From Ciborinia camelliae (lineage: Eukaryota; Ascomycota; Leotiomycetes; Helotiales; Sclerotiniaceae): DNA of 64,000 bases. The notes under the pieces are model-generated. The model was not told the origin of the DNA and did no database searches. It saw nothing but the letters and a program-made list of their open reading frames with translations. The position numbers and the translations under genes are program-made. The DNA lies in NCBI GenBank assembly GCA_025890175.1, contig JANPYM010000001.1:2278853-2342852 (forward strand), given 5' to 3'. Within the stretch, counting starts at the first letter, position 1. Each line of letters starts with the position of its first letter. Shown one piece after another: positions 1-19,415 of the stretch.

Positions 1-1135
1 ATTGTGATTCAGTAACAGCAAATTGGCCCTATTACTCCGAGAGTCATTGTGCCTACTCCCATGCCATCGAGGCAAAAAAAATTGAATTTGATCTTGATTG
101 TACGAATAGGTAGCATAAGATGTTTCATTGGGCTTCATAGCATATATACAACCAATACAATCTATGTCGGAGGTTCGGAGGCTTAAAAGTGCTGGCGATG
201 CGGCCTTGCGATTAGATTATAAAACGGTCATCCTGTTGATATGCAAATACTAGGTATTCATGAGGCAGAAGGGACGACTTTGTGAGTGGGTGCTGGGTGG
301 GCATGATGATGGGGGAGGAATTATATCGATGCTTGACATCAAAAGCTCTATCTGTTCCAATGGAAGTTACTTTTTAAATGCTGAAGGATGGTCTGTAAAG
401 ACGAGGTTTTGCGCAACGAATCCGCCTCGTCTGATAAGCTTACTTACTGCCAGCGATAAGACTTGGTAAAGATAAGACTTGGTAAAAAAACACATCGTCA
501 TTCAGACGTGCAACAAAACTTTTGTTGAAACGGGAATTTCCGTCTTGGTTCATATCCGACAGGGCGGCAAGAACAAAGGAGTGATTGAAGGGTCATGAAA
601 AACGGACTAACTCGCAGACTTCCTTCTTCCAATCCGGTTTTTGAGCCGGCAGCAGAACCATTTTTCAAAGATCACCATGCCCATTGCATTTTGCGCAAAA
701 GATGTTGATGGTAGGTATATTGATGACTTGATAATAGGAAAGTGTCACTCACTTGATGACTTAAAGCGACGTGTTGATGGCTGAGAGCCGGCATTGGCTC
801 GTGCGCCAAAAGAATTCACCAATTGTTTGTGCTAAGGCAACGTTGGAAGTGTAGACGAACTTACCGTTCATATGTAGGTAAGCTTCTCCACTATACCCTT
901 TGGGTGTAGGGAGAAAGGCTGACAGCAAGACATTGAGCAGCCTCATCTCATGAATCAATGAAAACGCGGTACCTGTTGGCCTGTTCAAGTCTGCATGTGA
1001 TATTCTCATCATTTTTCCAATTTTCCGTTGTCCATAAACACTGCATATCAAAATAGCAAAAGGGTATCGCAAACTTCACCCATTAACCACAACGCCAGAG
1101 TTCCATCTAGATGTCTTACCGAACCCCCATGGTAA
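1..1135. other. intergenic, no supported gene
   Basis: No reading frame here has a recognisable product. The longest frame (761..1072, minus) has no family resemblance and no intron signals linking it to anything. The right part is expected to hold the 3' UTR of the minus-strand CCDC130-like gene. Two copies of 'aagacttggtaaa' lie back to back at about 459-488. Confidence 0.5.
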
Positions 1136-2176
1136 TCAATCATCGGAATCATAATCAACCAAACCAGCCACTTTTGGTGTTGGTGGAGCATCCTCAAGAA
1201 CTGGGCTAGATCTCTTCCTCTTAACTCCGATCAACAAGGGTTTTGGTGTGCTCTTACAGGCGTTTGGTTGGTTGTTGATGAGGAACGGGTCCATCGCAGC
1301 TCTTGTGTTACCTCTTATCTCAGCCACGGCATCGTTGCGTTGTTTTGCCGCCAGTGCCTCAGCCTGCTTTCGTCGCGAAAGCTTTTGGCCCTTTCCCTCT
1401 GCTTTAGACGGTTCGCTAGCGTGTTGAAAGAGGGGTTTCGAGATTGCCTTAGTGATATTGGCCAGAGAACCATTGTTCCCAAATTCAATGAAACCAGCCC
1501 TCCGTGCATCTTCCTCATGCTCTGGCAATAATTCGAGACCTAAACTCATTTTATCTTGCAACGAAGATGCTACACCAGCCTCATTTTCTCGCGCCTTTCT
1601 CCCTTCCCGAAAGGTGTTCCTTAATTTTCTATTCATTTCATATGGGTGTTCCCATTGTTCGGAAAGATCTTGTAACTCTTCCAGCCGTTTCTTGCTGACT
1701 ACTAGCCTTTCTCTCTCCTCGACTTTTCCCTCTAAGGATGCGAATGCATTGTTTCTGAGTTTCTCTCTTTCCTCGTCGGTCAAGATTTTAACATCCCCTT
1801 CCATGATCTTATCCTCGCCGGTATCTCGTTTCCTCGCTCCTTCAGTTATCACATAGGCTGTATTCTTTGGATCCGTTCGTATCTCGATCCAACCCCCACA
1901 GGTGATATGTTTCATGCGAAAACTGTATATCGGCGTCGAGAGATAGTTGCCGATTTTCTTTTTCTCCGCGTTGAATCGTACCCCTTGCCCTATTATAGTA
2001 GGCTTCGGACAGTGCGTACACCAAATAGGATATGGCATCTCGAAGCGTACTGTTAAGATACCCTGCGAGATCTTATTCGCTCGAGCTCCTAAGGCATGCT
2101 TTCCATGCAACTGGTTTCCACTCATTAGTCCCTCCTGATCGGGAGGGACATAACGTCCCATATTGAAGCCCTGCAT
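1136..2176 (-). CDS. CCDC130/CWC16-family splicing factor
   Basis: Single-exon gene for 346 aa. The family (human CCDC130 and YJU2, yeast Yju2/Cwc16, fission yeast Saf4) acts in the nucleus with the catalytic spliceosome. Seen here: the start MQGFNMGRYVPPD, which I recognise from other filamentous fungi and which fixes the ATG; a core with 'SQGILTVRFEMPYPIWC' (about 37-53); a CxxC at 53-56; 'GVRFNAEKKKIGNY' (about 65-79); and 'WIEIRTDP' (about 95-102). The second metal pair is H90-x-x-C93 where human CCDC130 has CxxC. The rest is charged and coiled-coil-like, ending in an acidic DYDSDD tail like the human protein. It is divergent from the SPF30-like gene across 474 bp. The family is secure; the exact orthology (CCDC130 rather than YJU2) rests on the N-terminus and tail. 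Confidence 0.9.
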   Translation of the reverse strand: MQGFNMGRYVPPDQEGLMSGNQLHGKHALGARANKISQGILTVRFEMPYPIWCTHCPKPTIIGQGVRFNAEKKKIGNYLSTPIYSFRMKHITCGGWIEIRTDPKNTAYVITEGARKRDTGEDKIMEGDVKILTDEEREKLRNNAFASLEGKVEERERLVVSKKRLEELQDLSEQWEHPYEMNRKLRNTFREGRKARENEAGVASSLQDKMSLGLELLPEHEEDARRAGFIEFGNNGSLANITKAISKPLFQHASEPSKAEGKGQKLSRRKQAEALAAKQRNDAVAEIRGNTRAAMDPFLINNQPNACKSTPKPLLIGVKRKRSSPVLEDAPPTPKVAGLVDYDSDD

Positions 2177-2650
2177 CTTGTGTTTGGATGGAGGCCAGCT
2201 CCGCGATGATTGGCTCTACGTGAATTGTGTAAAATCGTAAAATCCCATCAACTGTCATAGACTGGCGTTGTTGTGACAAATTTCTTCTGGCCCCTCAGGT
2301 CTGAGAGATTAATATGCGAATTAATTTCTGTGACGTAGGCTGTTGAACTCGAGATATGGTTGTGTTTAAAGTTGAGACGAGGAAATTCCCAAGTTGGCAG
2401 CTAGCATCTCGGCCCTTAGTAATGCCGTATCACGTGCAAATCCGGGTTATCAGCGCTCGAGAGATTTCGGCGTCTCATTGTTTCCCGCTGCCAACACACA
2501 TTCTTCTTAGTATCGTATTGCGACGAGTTTGTCTACTATTGTCTCCCAAGAAGCAGCATTTGATATATCTACGATTTTCCTACGTCGCAACGAAGATTTT
2601 CATCAAAAAAGCTGTATCCTAATACACGAGTGAAGTCACCTAGACCTACC
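2177..2650. promoter_or_regulatory. shared promoter region of two splicing genes
   Basis: 474 bp lie between the ATG of the minus-strand CCDC130-like gene and the ATG of the plus-strand SPF30-like gene. No other gene is visible, so both promoters and 5' UTRs must be here. I see no motif that I can assign to a named factor. Confidence 0.6.
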
Positions 2651-3639
2651 ATGTCGGAACTTGCGGGATTAGAGAACGATATCAAGGAGTATAAATTGCA
2701 GGTAAGTTCGCAAGTGATCATTGAGTTTTGTCTCATATCCGCAGTATTGACATCTTCATAGCTAGAAACAGTTCAGTTAGGGCTTCAAGCAGATCCTGAA
2801 AATGTAGAGCTTCAGACGCTAAAAGCTGAACTCGAAGAAGTCATTTCCCTCACCGAATCCGCGATCGCAGAACTAAAGCCAGCTCCAGCACCTGTAGCCC
2901 AGCCCAAGAAATCGTCGGAACCACCAGTCAAGGAGAAATGGTCGCGAGAAAACCATCCTGCTTTCAAGAAAGCAGCGCCTCCTCCGCCAGAAGAGCCCGA
3001 AGTTGCCACAAGTTTCTCGGTCAACGATATGGTATTGGCGAAATGGCATTCAGGCGACAAAGGATTTTATCCCGCCCGAATCACATCAATAACTGGTTCT
3101 TCCACATCTCCTGTTTATATTGTCAAGTTCAAGAATTATGACACTACAGAAACTCTGCGAGCCAAGGATATCAAACCCATAGTTAATCAAAATAAGCGTA
3201 AGGCTGATGGTACACCAGTAGTAGCCTCGGTCCCTACTCCCCCATCGACATCGAATGTTATTTCAGCAGCCGCGGATATTGACCCGGAGCTTGCTCAGCA
3301 ATCTAAGCGCGAGCCAAGTAAAGTCAGTGATGGCCCCACAAGACCAGCCAAAGTCCCAAAGAAGATTAAGGCAAAGAAAGAATTAGATGACGGTAAGAAG
3401 AAGTGGCAGGACTTTGCTGCGAAAGGAAAGTTTGGCAAGTCAGGAAAGAAAGAGAGTATGTTCCGCACACCTGATGGGGTAAATGGTAGAGGTAAGGAAT
3501 ATGCGTCAACGTCGTTTACTTCTATTGTCTAACCACTTATATAGTCGGATTTACCGGTTCGGGACAAAGTATGCGAAAGGATCCGACAAGAAGTCGTCAC
3601 ATATACCAAACGAATGGCGACGAGGAAGGATTTGCTTAG
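2651..3639 (+). CDS. SPF30: SPF30/SMNDC1-like Tudor splicing factor
   Basis: Three exons: 2651..2701, 2762..3491, 3545..3639, giving 291 aa. The first intron has gtaagt...catag ends and the last gtaagg...tatag. The last exon encodes GFTGSGQSMRKDPTRSRH, a C-terminal block I recognise from the SMNDC1/SPF30 family, so splicing rather than read-through to the stop at 3532 is right. Residues 1-60 form a coiled-coil start (LENDIKEYKLQ, ELEEVISLTESAI). A Tudor domain lies at about 105-165 (MVLAKWHSGDKGFYPARITSI, then VKFKNYDTTE); such domains bind symmetric dimethylarginine on Sm proteins. A basic KKIKAKKE segment may be a nuclear signal. Human SPF30 helps the U4/U6.U5 tri-snRNP join the pre-spliceosome. 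The role here is inferred from that family. Confidence 0.92.
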
Positions 3640-4089
3640 GGGCAAGAGGGGGTGGGGAGAGGAATGGGCAACTCTCTGCAAGTATAGGTGTTTAGGCTGG
3701 GGTCTTCCTTTCTATTTGTTTTTTGTTATGGGCGATTTGATGGAGGCTAACATGGGCTTTGCGCACGAGAGCTAGAACTCTGGATTTGTGTTCCTCGAAT
3801 GAACATATTTTCTACCAGTACTGTTACTTGATGCACAATGAAACATGCTAAAGATCGCTTTTGTTAGGATACCTGAGCATCACGAGCCTTTCGAGCCTTC
3901 TGATTTGATCTGACCTTGAAACCACATTCCAGGTACGAAGAATCCTGCACTTGACAACAGGGCTGGCTCCTCGATTTCCATCGCTCTTTGTTATATCTCC
4001 TTTCCCTCAAATGATTTCTAGCATTGCGATTTTGCTATTGCGTATTCTTCAGCCCTTAATTGCTATTATCCCAATTTTAACAAATACTA
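3640..4089. other. convergent 3' ends of SPF30 and IND1
   Basis: 450 bp between two converging stop codons. It should hold both 3' UTRs and terminators. Nothing else is seen. Confidence 0.5.
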
Positions 4090-5185
4090 TTAAAACAGTC
4101 CAATCTTCTTTCCTACAAGTTCTGTGATTGACGTGAATGCTTTTGCTCTTTCGCTTTCGGGCTCGGCTACAACGGTTGGTTTTCCCCTATCCGCATCATC
4201 ACAAATGCTCGCGTGTAATGGTATATCTCCTAGAAATTCAATCCCATGCTTTTCACAAGCATGAGTGACTCCCGAATGCGATCCAAAAATATGCGTACTG
4301 TTCTGACAGTGTGGGCATGTGAATAGAGACATATTCTGTACCATTCCCAGAATCGGAATATCAATTTTCTTAAACATGTTAATACCCTTGACAGCATCCT
4401 TGAGAGCTATGTCTTGAGGCGTTGATACAATCACCGCTCCTGAAAACAATCAGTACCTTCAATCGACAAGAATAATGCACCTACCATCAAGTACAATTTG
4501 CTGCGTAATAGTCAATTGGGTGTCTCCAGTTCCAGGTGGTAAATCTAGTACCAAAACATCCAATCCTCCCCAGTCTACCTCGTGTAGAAGTTGCTGCAAT
4601 GCTTTCATTACCATCAATCCACGCCACACAACTGGCGCAGCATCACCCACTAAATAACCCATTGACATAGACTTTACGCCATAATTCGAGAGTGGTATTA
4701 GTTGATTGTCTGCCGCCCAAATATCAGACGTGTCTCAACTATCGCATTTAGACCAGAGACGCACTTGGGGATAATCTGGGCTCCCCCGATAAATTTAGTA
4801 GGGTAGGTATGGAGGGACCAAATATATCTGTATCTAGAATTCCACTTCGCAGACCACGGCGAGCAAAGGCGAGCGCAAGATTGACTATCGTTCCATCAGC
4901 TCTCGTTGCCACATAGCTATATATACTTGGAACTCGTACCAGAAAGTGTAGATTTTCCAACCCCTCCTTTCGCAGATGAAACAGCAATAACTTTCTTTAC
5001 ATCTTTTATCTTTCTTCGTTCGGGCAATCCACGCTGCATGCGCGGAATACTGCCAGTTCGTGGCAATCCCTGATGTGCGTCAACGATCAGTTTTTGGTCC
5101 AGTCTCCCTTAGTTAAACTAATTTAACATACCAACGGATTCTCATGTTGCAAACTCCGAAGAGTAGAAAATAATCGTGGTTTCAT
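4090..5185 (-). CDS. IND1: IND1/NUBPL mitochondrial Fe-S P-loop ATPase
   Basis: Five exons on the minus strand: 5185..5132, 5069..4940, 4884..4765, 4709..4485, 4439..4090, giving 292 aa. The protein belongs to the Mrp/NBP35 group. It has a short N-terminus with a likely mitochondrial presequence ([13 protein letters not shown]), the deviant Walker [11 protein letters not shown] at about 50-59, [13 protein letters not shown], the block [20 protein letters not shown] that marks NUBPL/IND1, DLPPGTGD, and a C-terminal CPHC (Cys about 218 and 221) that bridges a [4Fe-4S] cluster between monomers. IND1 delivers clusters to respiratory complex I in the mitochondrial matrix. Each intron falls inside a conserved block and its removal restores that block, so the model is well constrained. 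It is divergent from BFR2 with only 187 bp between the ATGs. Confidence 0.93.
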
Positions 5186-5372
5186 TTTGTTCTGATTTTA
5201 TGTCGAATTGAAGCTTGAACAGTAATGCTATGAGAGCTTTCAATGTTACTTTTAAGCGGATATGCGCCCGCTAGCGCGCCAAGATTTCGTGGGGAGCTCC
5301 AAAATAATTTTTTGGACTTGAAGTTCTTCGGAAAAACAAAAATTCTCAAAGTTTGAGAGGATAGCAAACAAT
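5186..5372. promoter_or_regulatory. 187-bp bidirectional promoter IND1/BFR2
   Basis: The whole space between the divergent ATGs of IND1 and BFR2. It contains a GC-rich core around 5265-5300 flanked by A/T. Both 5' UTRs must fit here as well, so the promoters overlap physically. Confidence 0.6.
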
Positions 5373-7284
5373 ATGGCGAAACCAAAGAATTTGGCAAAAC
5401 AGATTAAGGAATTGGAAGATCCTGTTCCTAAGGGTAAGTTGATTCTTTAGGTAATAGCCATTATGGGTTCAACTTTATTGACTTCGTTTTCTCTGGCAGA
5501 TTTCGATCCCGAAGATGATAAGCCGGCGCAAGAGAGCGATTCGGAAAGTGGTGATGAGAGTGATGATGGATTGGCGGGGACAGAACATTATGTTCAAGTT
5601 GGGTAGGAATTCTCTCATCTGTTGTTACAATATAACCCTGCTGATCAATCGTTAAAGAAAGAGTAAGCTACGAAAACCAGAAGAAGTTGCTCTTGGCCCT
5701 CAGTACGCCGGATCTCGAGTCAGTCGCGAACAATTGATGAACGGCGATGATGACGATGAATCTATTTCAGTATATGAGAGTGCTGATGAAGGAGCAAAGT
5801 TTGAGGGGATGGAGTTTGATGGAGAATTTGACGATATGGAAGTCGACAGTGATGAAGCTTTGGGGGAGAGTGATGAGGAGAGATTCAAGGACTTCGTATT
5901 TCGAGGAAGTGGAAAGCCCAAGAAACCCGTCAACGCTAAGAAACCTGTGGATGTCAATGGTGTAAAAAAAAGACCCACTGCTGCTGATTTCATGTCGGAC
6001 AGTGGCGAGGAGGGCGTGAAGCTGTCTGAAGAGGAAGACGATGACGACGACGATGATGATGAGGAAGATATTGAGGATGAGGAGGCAGACGAGACTGACG
6101 AGGACATCTTCGATATTGACGCTCAACATCCCGAGGCCATGGAAGATATCGAAGAAAATTCTGACGATGACGAGGAACATTCAGAAAATCCTGACCAGAG
6201 TGCTGAAGAGGAAATCGGCAGCGACGAAGAGAGTGAAGAAGATGCATCCGATGAAGGCGAGAATGATGAGGATGAGCAAGCAAGACGTGCTGAGTTGCGA
6301 AAGATCATGGGAGAGGAACAGAAGACAGTTGTCGCAACAATTTCCCAAGCAGCAAAAGCGGATGCGGATAAGGGTAATGCTGTGAAGCAACAACGCAAAG
6401 CATTCGACTCCCTTCTCAATGTCCGAATTCGCCTTCAAAAAGCCTTGGTAGCCACAAACTCGTTAGCCGCGGCCGATGATAAGGATCAGGAGGATAGCGA
6501 TGAGAATCCTTTCCAAGCCGCAGAAGAGGCAGCCATTAAGTTATGGAATACAATCGACGGACTTCGAAACGATCTTTCAAAAGCATCTAGTACCCCTAAA
6601 ACTGGGCAGAAACGGAAGCGCGGGATCGACTCTGCCACCCCCTCATCGGCTATTTGGGAGAGAATGCAAGCATCCGAGGTTGCCAATATTGACAATCGAC
6701 AAACTGTCCTCGAAAAATGGTCTAGCAAAGTCCGCGCAACAACAGCCCTCCCCATTTCCCGCAAACTTAACCCTAATGCCCCCCAACAATCCATCACATC
6801 TCTTATCCAAGATACACTTTCTAGTTCTGAGCACCTAATCTCCCGCACTAAGATACCTCGCTCCTGCGCTCCCGTCCAAAAACAGATGAAGCTCACCACC
6901 GATCCTAACATCTACGACGATGCTGATTTCTACCAATTGCTTCTCAAAGAATTGCTCGATCAACGAATGGTTGATTCTTCTTCCGCAGCCACTGGTGAAG
7001 CTGGCAAACCAATGCAATGGACTGCGGTAAAAGAAGCGAAGACGAGAAAAAACGTCGATACCAAAGCTAGTAAGGGCAGGAAAATGAAATTCACAGTTCA
7101 TGAGAAGTTGCAGAATTTCATGGCGCCAGAGGATAGAAATACGTGGGAAGAAACCGCGAGAGATAGATTCTTCGCGACATTATTGGGTAGAAAATTAGAT
7201 TTGGGGGAGAATGGAGATGAGGAGGATGTTAGTGAGGATGAGGGTTTGAAGGAGGAGGAGGGTTTGATGTTGTTTAGATCTTGA
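5373..7284 (+). CDS. BFR2: BFR2/AATF ribosome-biogenesis protein
   Basis: Three exons: 5373..5433, 5500..5602, 5658..7284, giving 596 aa. Homologous to yeast Bfr2 and human AATF/Che-1, nucleolar factors of the small-subunit processome needed for early pre-rRNA cleavage. Seen: the start MAKPKNLAKQIKELEDP, the block HYVQVGKSKLRKPEEVALG restored by splicing introns 1 and 2, a long Asp/Glu tract about residues 150-240 coded by GAT/GAC/GAG runs, the AATF helical region (ELRKIMGEEQKTVV, then FDSLLNVRIRLQKAL), and a C-terminal TRAUB-like region (FYQLLLKELLDQRM, then FMAPEDRNTWEE). Length and layout fit the family. The acidic tract invites strand-slippage polymorphism. Confidence 0.93.
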
Positions 7285-8471
7285 GGTTGAGCTTGGGTTG
7301 ATGGATAATGTGTGCAGCATGCAGGTGTAATAAAAGTTTGGGTGATGTGATGTATGAATGCATGGCATAAGAGCTCAGGGGATTATACCAAAACGAATGG
7401 AATGTTTATTTCAAAACACATCTGGCTAGTACTACCTGCACATCTCATCCAATTCCCCACGGTAATATACGCTCAATGTTTGACCCTAATCATGGAGATA
7501 AATTGTGTCCTTCATCTTCGAGATGACAGCAAGATATGAAGATATGAACTTGATCAAATCATATATGAGTATAAGCTGTCTGTCCATCTTCCTCGAGGAA
7601 AATCAGAGATTTGTCTCCCGGTGGGCCTTAACTGTTCACATCATTCCCCGGTGAACCTTATTTCTTTTACCTTGGTCGAATTCAACATACACAACATAGC
7701 TCCCGGTGACCTTGGTAATCCTCATGAAAACTCCCCCCCCCCGGTGAGCATCACCACATATCACTTCCTGTCTAATCGATCCCCGGTGACCCTTCCTCCC
7801 GCGCGAAAGTGCAGCTTTTGATTTCCTGGTTGATACTTTCTCATTACACCACCACCCAAGGAATCAGAATTCCCACCTGCATCGTCTCATTCCCATTTTC
7901 CCATTTCCCCAAGCGAACTTCGTTTGCGAGACGATGAAAATAACATGACGATAATGATTTTGCAAGTTATCGGAGGACGTTGTGCACCCTATGATTTCCC
8001 CTTTGATTTTTTGGCAGTTCCCTTTTGAAGATGTGCACTTTATCCGTACCTACCTTCATCTCTTTTCCGTATTCTACTATCCTATCTATCTAGCCTTCCC
8101 CTTTTTCATTTTCCCTTGCAAAACATACCTAGTATATCCATCCAATTTCATCCATGTAAAAACTATCACCTTCCAACGCCTACCAGTATCTTGGAAATGT
8201 GTTATTTGTATTTGCATGCTAGCAAGTAAATCATTATGTCAAATAAACAATCATTCTACAAGCCTGTCCGTAGGCCAGTAAGTAAGCAATGAATTTCAGA
8301 ATTTCGGAAATTCGGGAACTATTAGTTCTATTTCCCATCCCATCCACATCCTATGAGGCCTAAACTCCATTCCTTTATTTATATTTCGCTGCCACCGGAC
8401 CATTCCATCCATTACCTACCCCAAGCACAAAATTATAAAGCGATGAAGCATGGTCAAATTCTCCATTCCTC
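7285..8471. other. convergent intergenic region with CCCGGTG repeats
   Basis: 1.19 kb between the stops of BFR2 and the TCO89-like gene. The plus strand is strongly pyrimidine-rich between about 7990 and 8470. Five CCCGGTG cores occur within 172 bp (see the repeat entry). Apart from expected 3' UTRs I see no gene. Confidence 0.5.
7617..7790 (+). repeat. interspersed CCCGGTG repeat, five copies
   Basis: The heptamer cccggtg starts at 7617, 7647, 7702, 7739 and 7782. It is usually preceded by t or c and followed by a or g (cccggtgacc twice, cccggtgaacc, cccggtgagca, cccggtgggcc). The spacing of 30-55 bp is irregular and the DNA between copies is not repeated, so this is not a simple tandem repeat. 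Function unknown. Confidence 0.7.
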
Positions 8472-10403
8472 CTAATCCGCACTCCCACTCCCCTCAAAAC
8501 CCTTCTCCCATAACCCCCTCAAAAGCGCCGACACATTATCCTCATCCAATCCACTCCCACCACCATCCCTCTCTGTATCACTACCCCTCTCCCTCTCATC
8601 CCCCTCAAAACTTTGTCTTGTCCCCTTCTTCGCATTCCAATTGCCACTCCTCTCCCTCAAGCTGCCCGCCCGACTCACACTCGCACTCTTACTATGTCCA
8701 TATCCATTCCCATGCCCCGGTATATTCTTTCCCCCGTGTCCTAGAACCCCTATCTTCTCCAATCTCTTGACACCGCGTCCAACGGGATCCTGATGACGTC
8801 TCACAACCAAATATTCTAGTCCTGTCCTCTCAAGCTGCACTTTAATCCTCGGATCCCCCTTTACATCCCCGCCCATTAAATATCCCCCCATACAATTACC
8901 CATACCTATTCCCATTCCCATTACAGGTCCAAAGCCCATACCGCTTCCTCCACCATGATTACCCATTCCTAGTCCTCCGTTCAATAATGATAAAGCACCA
9001 AGACCTTCTCTCTGCGGTTCAATATTTGATGATGCTCTTTGAAGCCATAATTTCTGCTGCGTGCGAGAATTATACGCATTAGGCAGCCCGTTGATCCCAC
9101 TTGTAGAACTCTTCCGGGTCCTAGGTAGCAGCGCCGATTCCTCTTCCTCGTCAACATCATGCCTCGTCAAATTGCCCATCGATTTCGCCCTTGCCATTTC
9201 CCCATTACCACCATTCACATTCTTTTCCCGCCCATCCCCATTCACACCCCCGGTCCTGGACTCCCTACCATGATCCGGCGGAGGAAACTTGGGGCTACTT
9301 TCCCCAGGCGTCCCAGAATCCCCCACAAATCTCGATATCAATTCCTGGTTTCCAGAAGCAGTACTAGCACCCATACTCTTCCCCATCCCGCTCGCTTGAT
9401 CTGCACTACTAGAAGGTGTATGAGCCATCTTCGGCGTTGGTTTCGCAGTCGCCATACTCATTTTTGTCTCCGAGGCCAGATGCGACGGTGTTCTCTGGAG
9501 TAATTTCTCCGTGATGACTTTCGCGTCCACGCTAGATTTACTAGTTCTATTCGTCGTAGTATTTTTCTTCACACTCCCAATCCGATCAAAACTATCAACA
9601 GAGCTTTCCTTCGCAGAATCGGTCGCAGAATCACCGGCGGTAGGTTTCTTCGATTTTGGCGATGAAAGGGGAGAATGATGTCGAGAACTGACTGCGGAAT
9701 TGACAGCAGATTGTTTGGCAGATGTATTCGCACTGCGACTTAAAGCCGGACTTGCACTGGAACTTGCTTCTTCCCAACCCTCTTCGTTATCCTCTTCGGA
9801 TTCTAGTTTCCCCGGTGTGCCTATACCCAGCTCAAAATGCACACTATTTGGTCTCTTTTTACCATGCGGGCCGTCTGAAGTCTTAGGTCTTCTCGTCGAT
9901 CCCGCACTGTGCTGTACATCTGCTGAGCTCCGATTGCGTTTCAGAGCCGTCTGCGAATGATTCTTTTGACGATTGAGATTCGTGCTAGATTTGTGCGGTT
10001 TATCCCAAGGAGCTTGAAATTCCTTGAGATTGTCGTTGTTTGTTTGATTGTGGTTATTGTTGTTGTGAGTACTCGTTTGGCGGGATAATTTATGCAGCGC
10101 CTTATTACTGCTCACCCGCCCGTATTTGCCGCCACCCTTTACGTGTTTTCGCTCGCCTTTTGCTTTCTGTTCTTTATGCTGTGTAGCCGTCGTACCTGAA
10201 ACTGGAGGTGTACCCGCCGGGCTGTCGGTTTGGTGGCTGGTGACCGAGGACGTGGATCGGTGATGGGCTGTTAGATTGGGCCGTAATTGTGTCTGCGATT
10301 GCGATTGGAGTTGTGATTGCGATTGCGTCTGCATCTGCATCTGCGTCTGCGATTGGGGGGGATTATCTGAATGAGCTGGAGGGGGCATTGTAACTCTTGT
10401 CAT
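8472..10403 (-). CDS. TCO89-like low-complexity protein
   Basis: One uninterrupted frame of 643 aa from an ATG at 10403. It is mostly disordered: a Gln/Met-rich N-terminus coded by CAG/CAA and ATG repeats, many Ser/Thr stretches, and a Gly/Met-rich part about 465-505. Islands that look conserved are GGKYGRVSSNKALHKLSR (about 91-108), ALKRNRSSADV (about 153-163), VHFELG and WEEASSSASPALSRS (about 188-225). The combination of 'R-N-R-S', 'VHF..G' and 'ASSSASPALSR' recalls fungal TCO89, a TORC1 subunit at the vacuole. I base this on memory of the family pattern and not on a search. A profile search against PF10452 would settle it. The frame has no plausible introns, and its length suits that family. 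Confidence 0.55.
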   Translation of the reverse strand: MTRVTMPPPAHSDNPPQSQTQMQMQTQSQSQLQSQSQTQLRPNLTAHHRSTSSVTSHQTDSPAGTPPVSGTTATQHKEQKAKGERKHVKGGGKYGRVSSNKALHKLSRQTSTHNNNNHNQTNNDNLKEFQAPWDKPHKSSTNLNRQKNHSQTALKRNRSSADVQHSAGSTRRPKTSDGPHGKKRPNSVHFELGIGTPGKLESEEDNEEGWEEASSSASPALSRSANTSAKQSAVNSAVSSRHHSPLSSPKSKKPTAGDSATDSAKESSVDSFDRIGSVKKNTTTNRTSKSSVDAKVITEKLLQRTPSHLASETKMSMATAKPTPKMAHTPSSSADQASGMGKSMGASTASGNQELISRFVGDSGTPGESSPKFPPPDHGRESRTGGVNGDGREKNVNGGNGEMARAKSMGNLTRHDVDEEEESALLPRTRKSSTSGINGLPNAYNSRTQQKLWLQRASSNIEPQREGLGALSLLNGGLGMGNHGGGSGMGFGPVMGMGIGMGNCMGGYLMGGDVKGDPRIKVQLERTGLEYLVVRRHQDPVGRGVKRLEKIGVLGHGGKNIPGHGNGYGHSKSASVSRAGSLRERSGNWNAKKGTRQSFEGDERERGSDTERDGGGSGLDEDNVSALLRGLWEKGFEGSGSAD

Positions 10404-11033
10404 TTATTTTAGTGTCGATGTGATTGATGTGATTGATGCAGGGCTGAGATTCGTGAGAGGTGATTGTTCGCTTTTTATGGATTGAGGTGCAGGGACGACC
10501 GAAGGTTTGATGTGTTGGTGCGAACCGATTGTTAGACTACTCCATAGAAAGCCATACTTGCATTAAACTAAAATCATGCTCTCATGCTCCGTGGGATATC
10601 ATATCTCGAGTCTCGACAATATTCACTTCTCTGTTCGTACCAGTCATATGTACCTCGAGCGTTTATGATTTTGTGAATTTAACTTACATTACTTGATAAT
10701 CTCAATTGTTTGATACAATAGGTACGGTAGAGTAGGTGCAGTAGCATAGGATTGGGTATTTGAAATCGTATCATTACAATTGGGAACTCTTAAGATGGGA
10801 GATTGAAATAACCCTTAACTTTAATGAATCCCGAAGTAATCCCTAATAATCAATAATCAACAATCACTCATAGCCATTCATTTATTGCATTGCTCATCAA
10901 ATATATTTGTAAATTGGTTTCATTCATTGAGTCAATCTTGATGCTTGATATCACATCCGCTAACATCCCATTAATTAAGAAACGCCTGCATATGTTTGCT
11001 TAACCCAAAATTAAATCCCATTCTGTACAGACC
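10404..11033. other. promoter of TCO89-like gene and 3' flank of PCK1
   Basis: 630 bp of AT-rich sequence. It should hold the promoter and 5' UTR of the minus-strand TCO89-like gene at its left end and the 3' UTR of PCK1 at its right end. There is no supported gene or named motif. Confidence 0.5.
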
Positions 11034-13547
11034 CTAGACCTTAACAGCTGGCCCTGCCGCGATAACATCATCAGTAGCTTCCGACTGGTATTTTTTAAAG
11101 TTCTCAACAAAGAGACCGCCAAGTTTGGTGACCTCGGCTCTGAAACTAGCATCTCCTTGACTCCATGCATTTCTTGGGTTCAATAATCCCGATGGAACAT
11201 TGCTGCAAGATTTTGGAACTTGAAGGTTGAATGTCTCGTAATTTTCATACTCCACCTTTGCAAGTTCTCCAGAATGGATTGCGTCAAGAATAGCACGAGT
11301 ATATTTCAATCTATAGCATATTAGCGTTTGTTGTTTCGGAAATTTCAGTTATACTTACGGGCAACGCTTGCCACCAGTGGTAGCACCAGCCCCAACCCAT
11401 CCGGTGTTCAACAACCAAGCATTAGCCTTGTGTTGCTCAATCTTCTCGGCCAACATCTTAGCGTAACGCATTGGGTGTAGAGCCAAGAAAGGTTGAGCGA
11501 AGCACGATGAGAAGGTAGCTTGTGGTTCTGTAACACCATCTTCGGTACCAGCCATCTTCGAGGTATAACCAGAGATAAAGTGGAACATAGTTTGGGCGGA
11601 ATTGAGCTTGGAGATAGGTGGGAGAACACCACGAGCATCACACGTAAGAAGAATGATATTGCTTGGATGGTTTGTCGAGAGACAAGGAATCTTCGCGTTG
11701 GAAATGTACTCGATAGGATAGGCACTACGATTGTTAGCTAAGTTTCAAGGGGGTTGATGCGTGTTTTCCTTCAACGTACCAACGGGTGTTCTCAGTCAAG
11801 GTTGAATCGTCATAATCAACAAGACGAGTAGTTGGGTCAAAGACAACGTTCTCAAGAACGGAGCCAAATTGAATAGCACCAAAAATATCAGGTTCCTTCT
11901 CTGCCGAAAGACCGATACACTTGGCATAGCACTGCAAATTGTTAGGATATGGTAAACTAATGCATGGATTGAAGCACTTACACCACCCTCGATATTGAAA
12001 ACACCACGGTCACTCCAGCAGTGCTCATCGTCACCAATCAAGGCACGATTAGGATCTGCTGAAAGTGTTGTCTTACCGGTACCTGAAAGACCAAAGAAAA
12101 CAGTGACGTCTCCGTTTTTGCCCTCATTGGCTGACGAGTGAAGAGTGAGAACGTTATGCTTAACAGGCATCTCATAGAAGAGAACAGTGAACACGCCCTT
12201 CTTCATCTCTCCAGCATATTCAGTACCCAAAATGACCATCTCCTTTTCAGAAAAGTTGATAGCAACTGAAGTGCCTGAAGTCATACCCTCAGTATATCTG
12301 TTAGCAGGGAAAGATCCTGCATTGTAAATGGTATAGTCTGGGTGGAAATGTTCGAGATCTTTCCGATCAGGTCTAATGAGCATGTTGCGCATGAAAAGAG
12401 CATGGTAGGCACGAGCGCATACGACTCGAACCTTGATTCTGTATTTCTCATCCCATCCTGCAAAACCGTCGACAACATAAATTCGATTTCTTGTATTCAG
12501 ATAATCAATAGCACGTTCACGGTTGATTCTCCATACCTATTGTTGATGTTAGTTGATTGAACCTCGGTCATTAAAATATGTAGAATAATGCTCGCACGCG
12601 ACTCGAAAAAGGGGGAAGTTGATAGCTAATAGGCTGCAGGGGTGATATATCGGATTTTATGCACCCCGCATTTCGCTTGTGGGTGGAAATACAAAAATAG
12701 AGCCGAGGATATGCAAAATCTTATGACGTAGAAGATAATTATGCGGGGAAATATTGGCAGAAGTATATTTAAAGGGAAGGAAGGAAATGGAAATTAATAA
12801 TTGATGAGTCGTCGATATAAAAATGTGAAAATATACTCAAAAGTATTAAGGAGATGGGGAGTATAGTGCTGCTTTCGCAATCCGTAGAACAGTTGGAGAG
12901 CCAATGGAGAGCCAATGTAGATTTCCTTGGCTGAAATCGTATTGTATGTATTGCATGTACTGCCAAACAAAAAGACGCAAGAAAATGATAGCAAAGAAAG
13001 AGAGAATCTTCTTACATCGGGTGTCATAGGTTTGTTGACCGGACCCCACCAAATATCATTTTCAGATGATGGTTCTTTAACAATTCTCTTGTCTAATGGC
13101 GAGCGACCCGTCTTAGCTCCAGAGTATGCAGTAAGGGCACCGGTAGATGTGATGGCAGAACCAGTTTCGTAAACAAGGGCATCTTCGTAAAGGGCAGCGA
13201 CACTTGGGTTTGGAACCTAGAAAAGAATAGAAGTTAGGGACTGGCATATTTGTAGAAGGCCGTGGAAAACATACAATAGCTACACGATCATAATCGATAT
13301 GTGCCTTCTCGTGAAGTTCCTCCTCAAGTTCAGTGTGCTCAACTTGTGGTTGTACACCGCTTGGGTGTAGTGCTGAAAGAGAGATGTTAGCAAATTGAAG
13401 CTATACGATAGTTTTGGGACATGGGGAATGTAGATGGAGTTGAGCTGAACTCAACATAAGATACCAAGTCGAATGCGGCAGACAGTGGAAGTATTGAAGA
13501 AGGGTGTACTAACATGTGCGATTGACACTGGCATGTGTAGAAACCAT
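11034..13547 (-). CDS. PCK1: phosphoenolpyruvate carboxykinase (ATP)
   Basis: Seven exons on the minus strand: 13547..13514, 13372..13275, 13216..13016, 12536..11982, 11931..11780, 11724..11359, 11310..11034, giving 560 aa. The enzyme converts oxaloacetate and ATP to PEP, ADP and CO2, the committing step of gluconeogenesis in the cytosol. Seen: [15 protein letters not shown]-type block, [26 protein letters not shown], the kinase loop [16 protein letters not shown] (about 258-273), [20 protein letters not shown] restored across intron 4, and TENTRCAYPIEYI restored across intron 5. All active-site blocks are intact. Intron 3 (12537..13015) is 479 nt, far longer than the other introns, which run from 48 to 141 nt. 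The starting MVST lacks the N-terminal Pro of yeast gluconeogenic enzymes recognised by Gid4. Expected to be glucose-repressed. Confidence 0.96.
12537..13015 (-). promoter_or_regulatory. long PCK1 intron 3 with CreA-type motifs
   Basis: Removing this 479-nt intron joins NKPMTPD to [10 protein letters not shown] in frame. It contains GCGGGG, matching the CreA/Mig1 consensus SYGGRG, on the gene strand at 12664..12669 and on the other strand at 12743..12748. A TGACGT CRE-like half site lies at about 12724..12729. The motifs are seen; regulation is inference. Confidence 0.4.
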
Positions 13548-16500
13548 TTTGAGAGTGGAGAGTGATGAAGAATGATAGTTGTTTGTAGGTTGGTGTTGGG
13601 CCAAAAGATGAGAAGGACCAAGGATGTTTTTATCAGGATATGGAGAAGCAGTTCTTTGAATGGGATCGAAAGCCTTCTTATTCAAATTGGAGGACGACAT
13701 CATTCGGGTACTGTATCTTTGATTATGCCGAGTTTGGTTGAAGCTGTATTGGTGGTGGAGCAGTGAAGACGGTGTATAACGAATTGGGCTAATTTTATTG
13801 GCCGCAATGGGTGATGCCGGAAAGGAGATATTTTTAATTCGGGCGCGCCGGAAAACTACGGAATGTAAAGGTTTCAGTGTTGAACCCGATAAAGTGGTAG
13901 AATTAATAGAACTAGCTGGAATGGTTGGAATGGTTGGAATGGATATCAATACCTGAGCATTGACACGCATATCCGAGGCAGGGTGTTATCAGATCGTCAA
14001 GCGGGTGTTTTATCAAAAGTTATGATAATCTGCATCTGCAGTAAGGTTACCCGTACCGTAGCAATCTGCAGAACAAAGCAGGCCGGGGAAGGGCAATAGG
14101 AATATGTAACAAACAAAACACCAAATTTTTAGGAAGGAAGGAAAGGAAAAGCAAGGCAAAAAAAGAATGAGGTGAATGAGGTGAATTGATGGATTTGTTC
14201 TCAAAAAAAGATCTACAGTTACAATATGATCATACATTCATCCGAAGTTGTAACATTGCACAACGAAACGTTTGGATTTTACGTGTATTGCTCGAATTCA
14301 GCCTGCATTGGATAGGGTAGGTACGGTTGGTTGCATTGCATCCTCAAACAAGCTTTCTGGGGAGAAGTACGTACCTCCCTAGGTACTAGGTACTAGGTAC
14401 GTACCCTCTGTTACAATTGATCAAATCAAGTCTTTTCTATCGGTCAGAATATTAGATTAGATGCTTGAATTAATGGGTGGTAGGTAGGTAGGTAGGTATT
14501 CTCAAAAGGATGATTGCTCACACGACCATCAATGAGACTCATCAATTGAAGTAAATATATAAATTCGTGCCCAGTATAGGTAGTATACTTTTAGAAAGGC
14601 AGGTAGGTAGAAGGCAGGAGCAACCAACATATTCCCACTAATTTCTATACCGGTAGTATATCTTCAAGAAATGACTCGCCAACCATAAAGGAGTTGTTTG
14701 CATTTCTCATTCCCGGTGCCCTTTACCCCGGCGCCCCTCCTTGAACCTTACCTATGGATGGTGTGGAGATACAAACCCTGGGTATCACCATACCAGTGGC
14801 CAAAGTTCAAACTCTCGTGGTGGGAATCCATCAGCCGTGGGATATCGATAACGTACTCCCCGTCGCCAATTTTCCCATTCACAGGGGTAATCTCCACAGC
14901 TTGGCCTTCACATGCTCCGAAGATCCCCGCAAACCGATTCGGATAGTCTGACTTTTCCAACCTTGAATTCCAAGTTACTAGAATTCGGAGATGTTCCCAT
15001 GGTCCAGAACTAATTACCTAATCCAATAATCCTTTTAGCTCGGGTAGCAGGTCGGTAGGTAGGTAGTCGGTAATATACTTGTTAATTGTACAGTATCTCA
15101 TTTGACGGCGCCATGGGTCCGTTGACCAAATTTAAGACGTTTATAATTTAAGACCTGTAATAATATCAATGCCTACGATGTCCAAATATTCGAGATAATT
15201 ACTATTAGCGTGGATTTGAAACTGTTAACGGACTCTGGTAAATTGTAACTGGTTAGGGTTGATTTAGATCTAACGAAAACAGAGTTGAGGACGGAAACAG
15301 TTGCTCGAGGTCTTCCAAGCGCTTCCAGGTTGAAACAATTGATATCATTTTTTATGTGGGTCTCCAGCTTGGTCTTGTGTTACCAATACCTTACCAATAC
15401 CTTACCGGTACCGGTACCGGTATGCCTACCTACTAGGTAGGTACCTAAATCCGTTTGGTGGAAAAAGTCTTATCCGAGGTATGGATTTCACGTGGCTTCC
15501 GATAATCATTTTCCCTCAAAAGAAACCCTGCCTGCCCTGCCCTGCCCCTTCACCAACATCACTCCATACAGACAAAGTACCATGTCATTAACACGAAAAG
15601 TGGCGGAGCAGGTTACCATTTAATATCATCACAAGGCTCGAGGTCTATCTTTTCACGAATCCTTCAAAGTACCCATCTCTTACAACAACTGTAGCAATAT
15701 CCAAAATCACTCAAGCAAGCAGTCGTTTGTAAAAATGGCTCATGTTGCAATGCACACACTTACTATTATGATCGGACGTTGTAATGTGAGGGAATTAGTC
15801 GGATTTCTATATGCCGAGTGGTGGAAACTCTATAAGAGATCAAGGTCATCATGATGAAGAATATCGTGAAATCTAGCAGCAAGTGCTCTATCGTTTTCAC
15901 ATGCCGTGTAAGAGCGGTTCGGGCCTTGGCGGGTGATCACAACGAGTGTTGTGGTTGTACAACCTCTTATCGATGACTGATATTATAGTTGAAGTTGAGA
16001 ACAAGTTGATCGATCAATCTTTTCTACCTTCTTAATATCAAACACATCTTTTCAGAAACAGGATAAAGCCGGCGTCACATGTTGAAGATTGAGGGATCGT
16101 GCTGCCTCCTTCTTGTTTTGGTTGCCTCACAGATTGAAGCTCGAGGCTTTGGATAAATTGTGTCCTCCGATGCCAAGACCAAACACTGACGATTCATCCC
16201 CAATAAGCATGTTGACAAAGAGAGAATAATCAATTGGATGTCTTTTGCGATCTCAAAAGATACCAAATATCCCGAGGGTTTTTGTTTGGACCCGACGTAC
16301 ATCGACAAACCAGGCGGGTTGCATAATTTGGACGAAAATAAGCCGGAAGTATTTCAATTTAATATCCTTTTCAAACATATCGATCGACTCGCCATCTGGG
16401 ACGAAAAGAGAAGAGTTTTAAAGATTTGTAACCAATACTGGGAAATGCTTCTATTTCTGAACAGGGCTGACACCTTGGCGGCCCGCGCGAAAGACTTGTG

Positions 16501-18353
16501 GTCCATCACATCCATAGTGTGGATTCAGCCCCTGACAAGAAAGCCAAGACAACTTTCGCGGGGTGTCTAGTCTCGCTAGTCCATTATCATATTCTTAGAC
16601 CGCAAACATATCGTGTCGTTATGACCCAGAAGTTAGTCAAGCCGTCATTGTCAATTGTTCTCTCTGTCACCATTGATTGTCTTTTCAGCTCGAGGCAATG
16701 TTCTCCTTCTGATTCTGCCCTCATTACCTGTGTTCAACCGTCCAAACCCCTTGCAAACGATGGCGTCAACACGAAGTTTTATGAATCTAAGCCCACTTCT
16801 CAATAAGGTATGTAACGCAAACTTTGGTTATCAAACCCCAACTATATGGACTTTCCAGAGCCTAGACTCATCAAATCTCCACTCCCCGCTGGTCAGCATC
16901 AAGGTAAGAAATTTTCGAAAAGAGAATACCTAAATAGCATCCATCAAATTACACGAAGGGGAATGGTGAGTTGAGATGCGATGAGTACTTTGTTGCGCGC
17001 AATTGCGCACCTAACCGTACCCCTAGATATCTACTGGATATCACATTTGCTATCATATTAAATGAAGAGAGAGATGTTGAAGTTCACAGGGGTGAAAAAC
17101 TAGCAATACCTAGTAGATTTCTTAAGTGTACCCAGATGCGATGATCAACTTTGGATCTTCCTCTCCTCCAGGCTACGACCTCCATATCTCCTCCATGTGC
17201 CTATATGATCTCTCCAAACAATCTACGGATCATAAATTCCTCATTTTAAGACGAGTTATTATTACATGGGGTTTTCTTTTCACCAACTCTAACACGGTCT
17301 TCATCCCTCGTTCTAACTAACCAAGCATTCAAGTACCTCCCCCCTTTCCCCTGTCGATTTAACTCGATAACTTGCCTTCCTCGATATTTATTTCATCAGA
17401 CTTGTAGACGTTATACATCTCACGAAAATAAGTTATATGTGTATATACTCTTCTCCCCCATTGAAAGACTAGATACTTAGATGCCTAAACATTTAAACAA
17501 TCCCACCATCAACCATCCACTCATCCATCCACTCATCCATCCATCCATTCATTATTCGTCTACTATTTACCCATCTCACTTCATCCCCACTCATACAACA
17601 TAACATGATAAACATGGAAACATCGGTAAAAACCAAAGTATTTCCAAATTATTCCCCACAATACCATACAATGAGCTTACCAGAAATACACCATGCTCTA
17701 CATCCTCCAAGTTTTACCTCCACCTTCTTTCATCTTCATCCCTCCCTTCTCTTCATCATGCTTCCACTTCCGCCTGACACCTCCACAAAGTAATTTTCGC
17801 ATTCACATTCATACATAATGAAATTGATTATCCATGGTTCATTATCTGCTCATTAGCTAGCTAGTGAGCCTAAAAAATTCATCATTCCATCATTCCATCA
17901 TTCCATCATCTCCATTTCCACATTCATAATTGTGATGGAATAATCCGCTCCGTGTATCATTATGCACCTCGAGCCTATCAAGCCTTCCTCACTCCCGGTG
18001 ATTCCATGCATCCCCCATTCATACAGACTGAATGGAAAGCGAAACCTAAATGCTGAACAAGCCAATCACATCCACGTCCATCCCAGACCGAGTTTGCAGT
18101 CCACAAAAAGAAAAAGAGAAAGAGAAAGGGTGGTTACATCCCGCCCAACATACGTGTAATAAAGCTCCTAACCCTAGAGCACCCTTGGAGTCAAAATCCA
18201 TTGAAATTTTATCCACAACCATGCCTTATGAACACCTGTGAAAATATGCGTAGAATGCGTATGCGTTTATAGAATATCCATTGTCCATAATCGACTTCGA
18301 TCTGCAAGCGAGAGTATCATGACGGAACCACTCGCGAATGGTTGAGGTGTAGT
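13548..18353. other. 4.8-kb gene-poor region
   Basis: The left end should hold the PCK1 promoter. The rest has no recognisable gene. Short tandem and palindromic runs of TACC/GGTA occur at 14371..14412, 14479..14500 and 15395..15452, and CATC/CATT runs at 17515..17555 and 17879..17910. Reading frames at 14754 (plus), 16238 (plus, 110 aa from an ATG) and 16759 (a 16-codon piece followed by a gtatgt donor) are intact but resemble nothing I know. I leave them as unassigned. Confidence 0.5.
16238..16570 (+). CDS. hypothetical ORF, 110 aa, doubtful
   Basis: An ATG-started frame whose product begins MSFAISKDTKYPEGF and contains a fairly ordinary amino-acid mix with a hydrophobic and charged segment (LAIWDEKRRVLKICNQYWE). 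It has no repeat bias and no antisense gene to explain it. I recognise no family and see no signal peptide or membrane segment. It sits alone in gene-poor DNA. It may be a gene fragment, a lineage-specific gene or chance. Confidence 0.2.
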   Translation: MSFAISKDTKYPEGFCLDPTYIDKPGGLHNLDENKPEVFQFNILFKHIDRLAIWDEKRRVLKICNQYWEMLLFLNRADTLAARAKDLWSITSIVWIQPLTRKPRQLSRGV

Positions 18354-19415
18354 TTAGATTTCCTCCATTGTACCCGCTGCCTCTTCATTATCTTCATCGT
18401 CGAAACTAGCTACCGAGGACATCGTATCGTCGTCGGATTCGTCAGCGCCCGCTTCGCCCGCTGCATCTTTACTCGCGTATTTCGTCACATATTCTATCTC
18501 CCATCAGCCCCTATCCTCTTTCGCAGCCTCTACCACAAGAAGCACACCTTTAACCTTCAAATCATAAGCCTTTGAATCCTTCATAAGAAGCGCCGCCGCC
18601 TCTCCATTCAGCGGATCCGTTGGGTTTGGATATCTGAGTAGCTGTGGAAGAAAGACTTCGAAAATATTTATCATATCGAACATAGGTGACCAAGTCTGGT
18701 TTATGACATCGAGACATACGGATCCGGACCTATATGTTGAGAGTCTTAGCAACTGTTCTGCCCCACCCGCAAGGTGGCGTGAGGAAGGGCCTACAACTCG
18801 TCGATATTGGGATGAAAGATGCGGTTCGTGAAGCCAATACTGGGGGACTTGTATGGGTACTGGTCTGGTAGTTCGACGTGGACTTTCCAGAGGCCGCCTT
18901 CAAATGGTGCTGTGGAGCGGGCGGTGGTTAGTTTGCGTGGTTGGATTTTTGTGGTTGGGTATGAGGTGAGGGGAAGGAAAGGTGAACGAACTCTCTTCTG
19001 GTCCCTTGAAGCGGACGTAGAACTCTTGCCTGTAGCCAATATATGAGTGGTTGCTTCGGTGGACTGCCTTAAAAGAGTACATACACTGGAGAAAATGTTA
19101 GAAAAATCAACAGTTATACAGGTATATCTACCAACTCACTGTTGTCATTCACAAGAGTCACCTCATAATCCGACATCAACCTATACTCCTGGTAAGCACT
19201 GAAGCATAAGATCCATCGGACGGGCGTTGAGAAGGTATGGCATACATCCTGTAGTCATATCGTTAGCCAGAAATCCCCAACAAGTGTTTGAAGAACGAAA
19301 CTTACTTCATGACCTATGTACCAAAAACAAGATATTAGTCTTTCAAATCATCCAAGTATATTGCCCACGAAACATTACTCACATCAGTCTCAATCCTACG
19401 TCTAGGACTAGACAT
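18354..19415 (-). CDS. UBC8: UBC8/UBE2H ubiquitin-conjugating enzyme E2
   Basis: Nine exons on the minus strand: 19415..19383, 19313..19306, 19248..19246, 19180..19140, 19085 alone, 19029..18992, 18909..18795, 18729..18548, 18493..18354, giving 186 aa. The start [11 protein letters not shown], the E2 fold with [20 protein letters not shown] (catalytic Cys about 85), [16 protein letters not shown] and an acidic C-tail identify the Ubc8/UBE2H class. In yeast Ubc8 works with the GID ligase to degrade gluconeogenic enzymes. The 5' half is extraordinary: exons of 8, 3 and 1 nt are needed to recover V12-M13-K14-M15 and M29-Q-E-F. The flanking introns are 69, 57, 65, 54 and 55 nt, with GTGAGT, GTAAGT, GTATGC, GTGAGT and GTATGT donors. 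The later donor GTTCGT at 18991 is weaker. Family call very secure; micro-exons inferred from frame. Confidence 0.92.

Follow-up and report, generated by a model that had tools for sequence, protein, structure and literature searches.

The UBC8 gene of Ciborinia camelliae very probably contains a real, constitutive exon of a single nucleotide. This base, T 19085 on the minus strand of the window (the whole 64,000-nucleotide stretch of contig JANPYM010000001.1 analyzed here), lies between two complete short introns that would be spliced in two steps, and the arrangement, together with an upstream 3-nt exon of sequence GAT, is probably ancestral.

The gene itself occupies 18354..19415 of the minus strand and is a UBC8/UBE2H orthologue of 186 aa, running from ATG to stop in nine exons (33, 8, 3, 41, 1, 38, 115, 182, and 140 nt) with eight introns of 54–82 nt, all GT-AG. 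A UQ_con domain (PF00179) is found at the gene, and the predicted protein is 95% identical to P0002 of Monilinia fructicola. Its best match among solved structures is 8pmq (E 1.4e-70), named E2-24 kDa, which we presume to be yeast Ubc8. Human UBE2H structures match as well (8pjn, E 1.1e-64; 2z5d, E 1.6e-63), and after 2onu and 1yf9 the next chain drops to E 4.9e-27. Similarity to yeast Ubc8 and human UBE2H extends over the full length of the protein, as expected for this E2 family. No second close copy was found among the best-scoring candidates in the genome, where the 13 other matches listed share 28–49% identity. The preliminary description of this gene included the one-base exon, which stands, but omitted the 3-nt exon GAT (19248-19246) and the 8-nt exon 2. 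Exons of 8, 3, and 1 nt are found within 230 nt of this gene. The features are as follows.

19383..19415, minus strand: exon 1, 33 nt
19306..19313, minus strand: exon 2, 8-nt microexon GTCATGAA, coding V-M and two bases of K
19249..19305, minus strand: intron GTAAGT...CTAAC...CTACAG, 57 nt
19246..19248, minus strand: exon 3, 3-nt microexon GAT, restoring VMK-M-LMSD
19181..19245, minus strand: intron GTATGC...CTTAC...TATAG, 65 nt
19140..19180, minus strand: exon 4, 41 nt, 3' end ...GACAACA
19086..19139, minus strand: intron GTGAGT...TCTAAC...CTCCAG, 54 nt
19085..19085, minus strand: exon 5, one nucleotide (T), central position of the ATG codon for Met29
19030..19084, minus strand: intron GTATGT...CTCAT...CTACAG, 55 nt
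18992..19029, minus strand: exon 6, 38 nt, beginning GCAAGAGTTC
18795..18909, minus strand: exon 7, 115 nt
18548..18729, minus strand: exon 8, 182 nt; exons 7 and 8 code the stretch with the presumed catalytic Cys
18354..18493, minus strand: exon 9, 140 nt including the stop

Every coordinate and motif that had been named for the one-base exon was located in its place: the end of exon 4 at 19140, the introns at 19139-19086 and 19084-19030 on either side of T 19085, and the resumption of coding at 19029. The earlier reading of the frame was confirmed too. Joining 19140 directly to 19029 shifts the frame, use of the first acceptor alone reads M-Y-V-L-F-stop (the predicted stop after five codons), and both introns (54 and 55 nt) have the consensus ends claimed for them, the first with TCTAAC. 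The further claim that only A+T+G restores the conserved Met was borne out when all GT/GC-AG splice combinations across 19180..18992 were listed, each containing a single intron or a pair and no intron under 35 nt. This procedure gave 1,217 joins, 258 of which are open and in the right frame; exactly one of those yields VNDN-M-QEF, and it passes through T19085. The one-nucleotide exon is the sole GT/GC-AG solution that gives the conserved protein. Two features that would be expected of a nuclear spliceosomal single-nucleotide exon are observed here: complete GT-AG introns, with branch-like TCTAAC and CTCAT, flank one base, and that base is needed for the frame and for a conserved residue that is M or L in all transcript-like homologues and all proteins from outside Pezizomycotina sampled below. 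In one respect the site is atypical, as the last exon base before a donor is usually G and T 19085 departs from that.

Eleven other joins keep both flanks but add residues. The simplest of these replaces the pair with a single longer intron whose donor is shifted by 4 nt, extending exon 4 to 19136 and removing 19135-19030 (GTTGGT...CTACAG) to give NDN-SE-QEF. Such a join is open, keeps the frame, and shares the final acceptor, and its equivalent appears in 14 of 155 annotated Pezizomycotina models considered below. The shifted donor GTTGGT is weak, however, and lies inside the strong GTGAGT site, and the added residue falls where spacing is uniform in all 16 proteins from outside Pezizomycotina. 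The S[KE]Q reading is also absent from 57 transcript-like proteins, and models that carry it coexist with transcript-like relatives that read MQEF (P0166 versus Tuber P0129, 97% identical downstream). We therefore regard the shifted donor as a highly improbable substitute for the one-base exon.

How readily could an acceptor and a donor one base apart arise by chance? We subjected the 110-nt interval to 20,000 dinucleotide shuffles, scored by criteria set after the site was seen; AG-N-GT with both introns at least 45 nt occurred in 6.9%, and in 3.7% N was T. AG-T-GT with consensus ends occurred in 0.08%, and the addition of branch-like sites lowered this fraction to about 0.01%. The pattern CTAAC-N(4,20)-CAG-N-GTATGT, itself written post hoc, is not enriched in the 46.2-Mb genome: it matches 4 times, at 3 sites, and the reversed control matches 6 times. 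Because the bare AG-N-GT is not rare and the motif is unenriched genome-wide, the arguments for the exon come from the reading frame, the encoded protein, and the relatives. As for the other two pattern sites, L021 (C4:2016169-2016200) and L022 (C9:800618-800648), one lies within an open frame and the other at the end of an open frame, where a GTATGT donor follows; we take that latter frame to resemble a chitinase exon.

The relatives were sampled by three protein searches, the best 120 of 5,640, of 5,889, and of 5,703 matches, which together gave 230 distinct proteins, each representing a cluster. These proteins were grouped by source, by hand, into 57 from short contigs (lgn, jgi, ena, merc), 155 annotated Pezizomycotina models, and 16 from outside Pezizomycotina; membership in Pezizomycotina was assigned from organism names, seven of which were looked up. 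The rows P0047 and P0058 had mixed sources and were assigned to none of the groups; each is canonical. Among the 16 outside rows, two (P0001, P0009) bear plant names. P0001, labeled Quercus suber, is a 302-aa E2 with a large part of the enzyme repeated, perhaps through a model or assembly error.

At the one-base site, M or L is present at the exact spacing in 57/57 short-contig proteins and 16/16 proteins from outside Pezizomycotina, versus 16/155 Pezizomycotina models (a strict count over the proteins listed). Seven other models have the right length but read R, and 132 show an insertion, loss, or shift. Thus 139 of the 155 models listed lack the expected M, and we consider these sampled models wrong or doubtful at this spot. 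The contrast between groups gives a Fisher p of 2e-37, uncorrected for relatedness and for the choice of top hits. As for the 16 canonical Pezizomycotina models, they may be accurate, or they may reflect intron losses.

We infer that the short-contig proteins derive from spliced transcripts, since they have unbroken open reading frames for a gene with eight introns and several lie on contigs too short to contain the 1,062 bp of the gene (P0004, for example, on 928 bp). The set also includes contigs of up to 7,280 bases, one entry, P0036, without a stated length, and a 233-aa protein, P0067, with an odd N-terminal extension. For 53 of the 57, the nearest annotated relative belongs to Pezizomycotina. 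In three cases a transcript-like protein is 100% identical downstream (153–154 residues) to an annotated model and differs from it at the junction: P0066 reads MQEF where Penicillium chrysogenum P0133 reads KF, P0064 and P0156 read MQEF and differ from Morchella P0142, and P0188 reads MQEF and differs from Ilyonectria P0169. P0004 also reads MQEF; its nearest annotated relative is Mollisiaceae P0037 (95% downstream), from a group that we take to be near that of C. camelliae. UBC8 DNA of fungal relatives was not found in the contigs searched, as genome contigs gave three distant prokaryotic E2-like loci and viral contigs one distant locus. The base T in relatives is read from peptides and not from DNA.

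The errors in the annotated models are informative in their own right, as each can be read as a signature of particular splice sites. NDN-MY, found in 10 of the 155 Pezizomycotina models, corresponds to A^TG-TAY (the caret marks the splice boundary), in which the first acceptor has been used and the donor T^GTAY read through. These models come from Hortaea, Beauveria, three Fusarium, Cordyceps, Aspergillus tamarii, Lasallia, Sclerophora, and Diplocarpon, and they span six classes (Sordario-, Dothideo-, Eurotio-, Leotio-, Lecanoro-, and Coniocybomycetes), with four names looked up and the classes of the remainder presumed. None of the 155 models supplies an NDN-MY reading from Pezizomycetes. 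In the 14 models with NDN-S[KE]-Q, the donor is displaced 4 nt into GT(A/G)A^GT; in 17 with NDN-KF, the acceptor is displaced 5 nt into GCAAG^; and Hyaloscypha P0224 represents the direct frameshifted join. At this junction MY, KF, and R, like S[KE]Q, are each found in 0 of the 57 short-contig proteins.

These signatures bear on the possibility that 19139-19030 is a single 110-nt intron and that the gene has lost one base, as a pseudogene or through an assembly error, with the internal AG-T-GT present by chance. A lost base would create the same frame problem, and AG-N-GT alone is common enough in shuffled sequence to permit such a coincidence. Against this reading, an internal site with consensus ends and branch-like sites is far rarer in the shuffles, the remainder of UBC8 is intact and closely matches that of M. 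fructicola, and the models of relatives from several classes go wrong at this very junction, including the ten with the T^GTAY read-through. We give this reading almost no credence. A sequencing error at the junction likewise appears unlikely, because the models of relatives break down at the same point and their peptides bear the marks of the same splice sites.

The two neighboring microexons show a related picture. The residue supplied by GAT is present in 54 of 54 transcript-like proteins that cover the site, 52 of them in full and two (P0166, P0188) starting inside exon 2; the other three of the 57 start after the 3-nt site. The 155 Pezizomycotina models divide into 46 with the right spacing, 43 that skip the exon, 9 with the read-through VMKMY, and 57 that are otherwise off, so that 109 of those listed are off at the 3-nt site. 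Skipping of GAT keeps the frame (VMKLMSD). At the exon 2 site, 49 of the 57 transcript-like homologues read VMK and three VMR, and the other five start at, inside, or after it. Judging from these sequences, the one-base exon seems not to be peculiar to C. camelliae and to be common to many Pezizomycotina, along with the 3-nt and 8-nt exons. From the proteins, the arrangement with its upstream GAT probably dates back to an ancestor shared by all Pezizomycotina or by the majority of their classes.

How could a one-base exon be spliced? Because a donor, a branch-like site, and an acceptor are present in each of the two short introns beside it, recognition by intron definition would suffice, and the two could then be removed in two successive reactions. 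An acceptor and a donor one base apart could hardly be bound simultaneously, and two-step splicing is therefore expected. The preliminary description favored removal of the upstream intron first, but as both introns are complete on their own, either order is possible. If the upstream intron is removed first, the exon side of the second donor becomes CAT instead of AGT; the exon-side consensus of donors is (C/A)AG, to which CAT has one match more, and this difference slightly favors the upstream-first order. In the spliced message the exon would contribute the central base of the Met codon within the conserved N-D-N-M-Q-E-F. Since skipping shifts the frame and retention of the second intron leads to a stop after five codons, only full double splicing would make the enzyme, and the message of mis-spliced products, with their frameshift or stop, would presumably be decayed.

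A two-step excision of paired introns is also characteristic of stwintrons, and the UBC8 pair could in principle be one: stwintrons occur in Pezizomycotina, consist of two short U2 introns that are removed consecutively, and are of similar size (e.g. 99 and 109 nt) (PMC5639578, available text). A stwintron, however, requires that an internal intron split the donor, branch site, or acceptor of an external one, and it leaves no base in the mRNA between the introns (PMC5639578). In UBC8 the donor GTATGT (19084-19079) and the acceptor CTCCAG (19091-19086) are both intact before splicing, and T stays in the message. No splice element is interrupted, which sets the pair apart from stwintrons, and a stwintron is to our minds a scarcely tenable description of what we interpret as two independent introns around an exon. 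Microexon terms are absent from the stwintron paper PMC9024468.

Single-base exons have been reported in very few nuclear genes, according to the portions available of the sources: plant APC11 and VPS55 (PMC8831610) and Fusarium CYP621A (PMC12940212). The preliminary description had cited plant APC11 as precedent; this is correct, but APC11 is not the only one, given VPS55 and the fungal CYP621A (PMC8831610, PMC12940212). The APC11 exon was first described in PMC4674806, whose authors suggested that the two introns are excised one after the other through intron definition. The 1-nt microexons of APC11 and VPS55 are conserved in land plants, were confirmed by RNA-seq and RT-PCR, and are absent from the reference annotations compared (PMC8831610). 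Those cases are transcript-proven, whereas the UBC8 exon is predicted from DNA and protein sequences; no adjoining 3-nt exon is noted for the plant genes in the available text, unlike for UBC8 (PMC8831610).

A close parallel is CYP621A, whose one-nucleotide exon is supported by 18 SRA reads; the paper presents it as the second such exon overall and the first fungal one, and its accessible text makes no mention of ubiquitin or UBC8 (PMC12940212). As in UBC8, one base sits between two complete short introns of a nuclear fungal gene, is needed for the frame, and is the middle base of a codon in a conserved motif (there the G of PKG) (PMC12940212). The base is G in CYP621A and T in UBC8, and only the UBC8 exon is adjoined by a 3-nt exon, as far as the available text goes (PMC12940212). 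CYP621A is a P450 of unknown function with the exon in Fusarium (and Nectria) orthologues only, whereas UBC8 encodes a conserved E2 and the exon is seemingly found in many classes (PMC12940212). Organellar single-base exons, in placozoan cox1 (PMC5436844) and Ophiostoma/Ceratocystis rnl (PMC12308204), also place one base between two introns, but they are mitochondrial, and in the available text the introns of Ophiostoma/Ceratocystis rnl are group II introns, which implies a splicing machinery other than that of UBC8 (PMC12308204).

We found no report of a one-base exon in UBC8 in the open-access literature. The kind of exon, its deep conservation, and its misannotation already have plant precedent; the novelty lies in the gene concerned, the range of fungi, and the accompanying 3-nt exon. 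The land-plant-wide 1-nt exons rule out a description of the UBC8 exon as the most widely conserved of all (PMC8831610, available text), and it is apparently the most widely shared one-base exon in fungi. If it does span many Pezizomycotina classes, it would be the equivalent in fungi of the plant exons that are deeply conserved. UBC8 also offers a natural substrate for studying how spliceosomes treat two introns one base apart, and the misread models could serve directly to benchmark gene finders and spliced aligners.

Retention across classes, if confirmed by DNA, would raise the question of why so awkward a structure is not lost. Ubc8 is the E2 of the GID/CTLH pathway, and one answer could be that the one-base and 3-nt exons form an ancestral Pezizomycotina cassette kept as a useful splicing checkpoint for the level of Ubc8. 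Because products of skipping or retention carry a frameshift or stop, the amount of enzyme would then depend on how fast the two steps of splicing proceed. We offer this idea as speculation that is probably incorrect.

P0002 of M. fructicola, the nearest annotated relative among the matches listed, reads VMK-R-LMSD and NDN-R-QEF, with R at both microexon sites. We simulated a microexon-blind spliced alignment of a transcript containing GAT and T to the window DNA. All five one-mismatch solutions at the one-base site give R, as does the sole one-mismatch solution at the 3-nt site. The gene set behind the MFRU names drew on RNA-Seq support, protein comparison with Botrytis and SwissProt, and manual curation (PMC8070815, available text). 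A transcript with both microexons would explain P0002, as would, equally, a length-preserving protein alignment. The other Botrytis and Monilinia models examined are wrong at one or both microexon sites.
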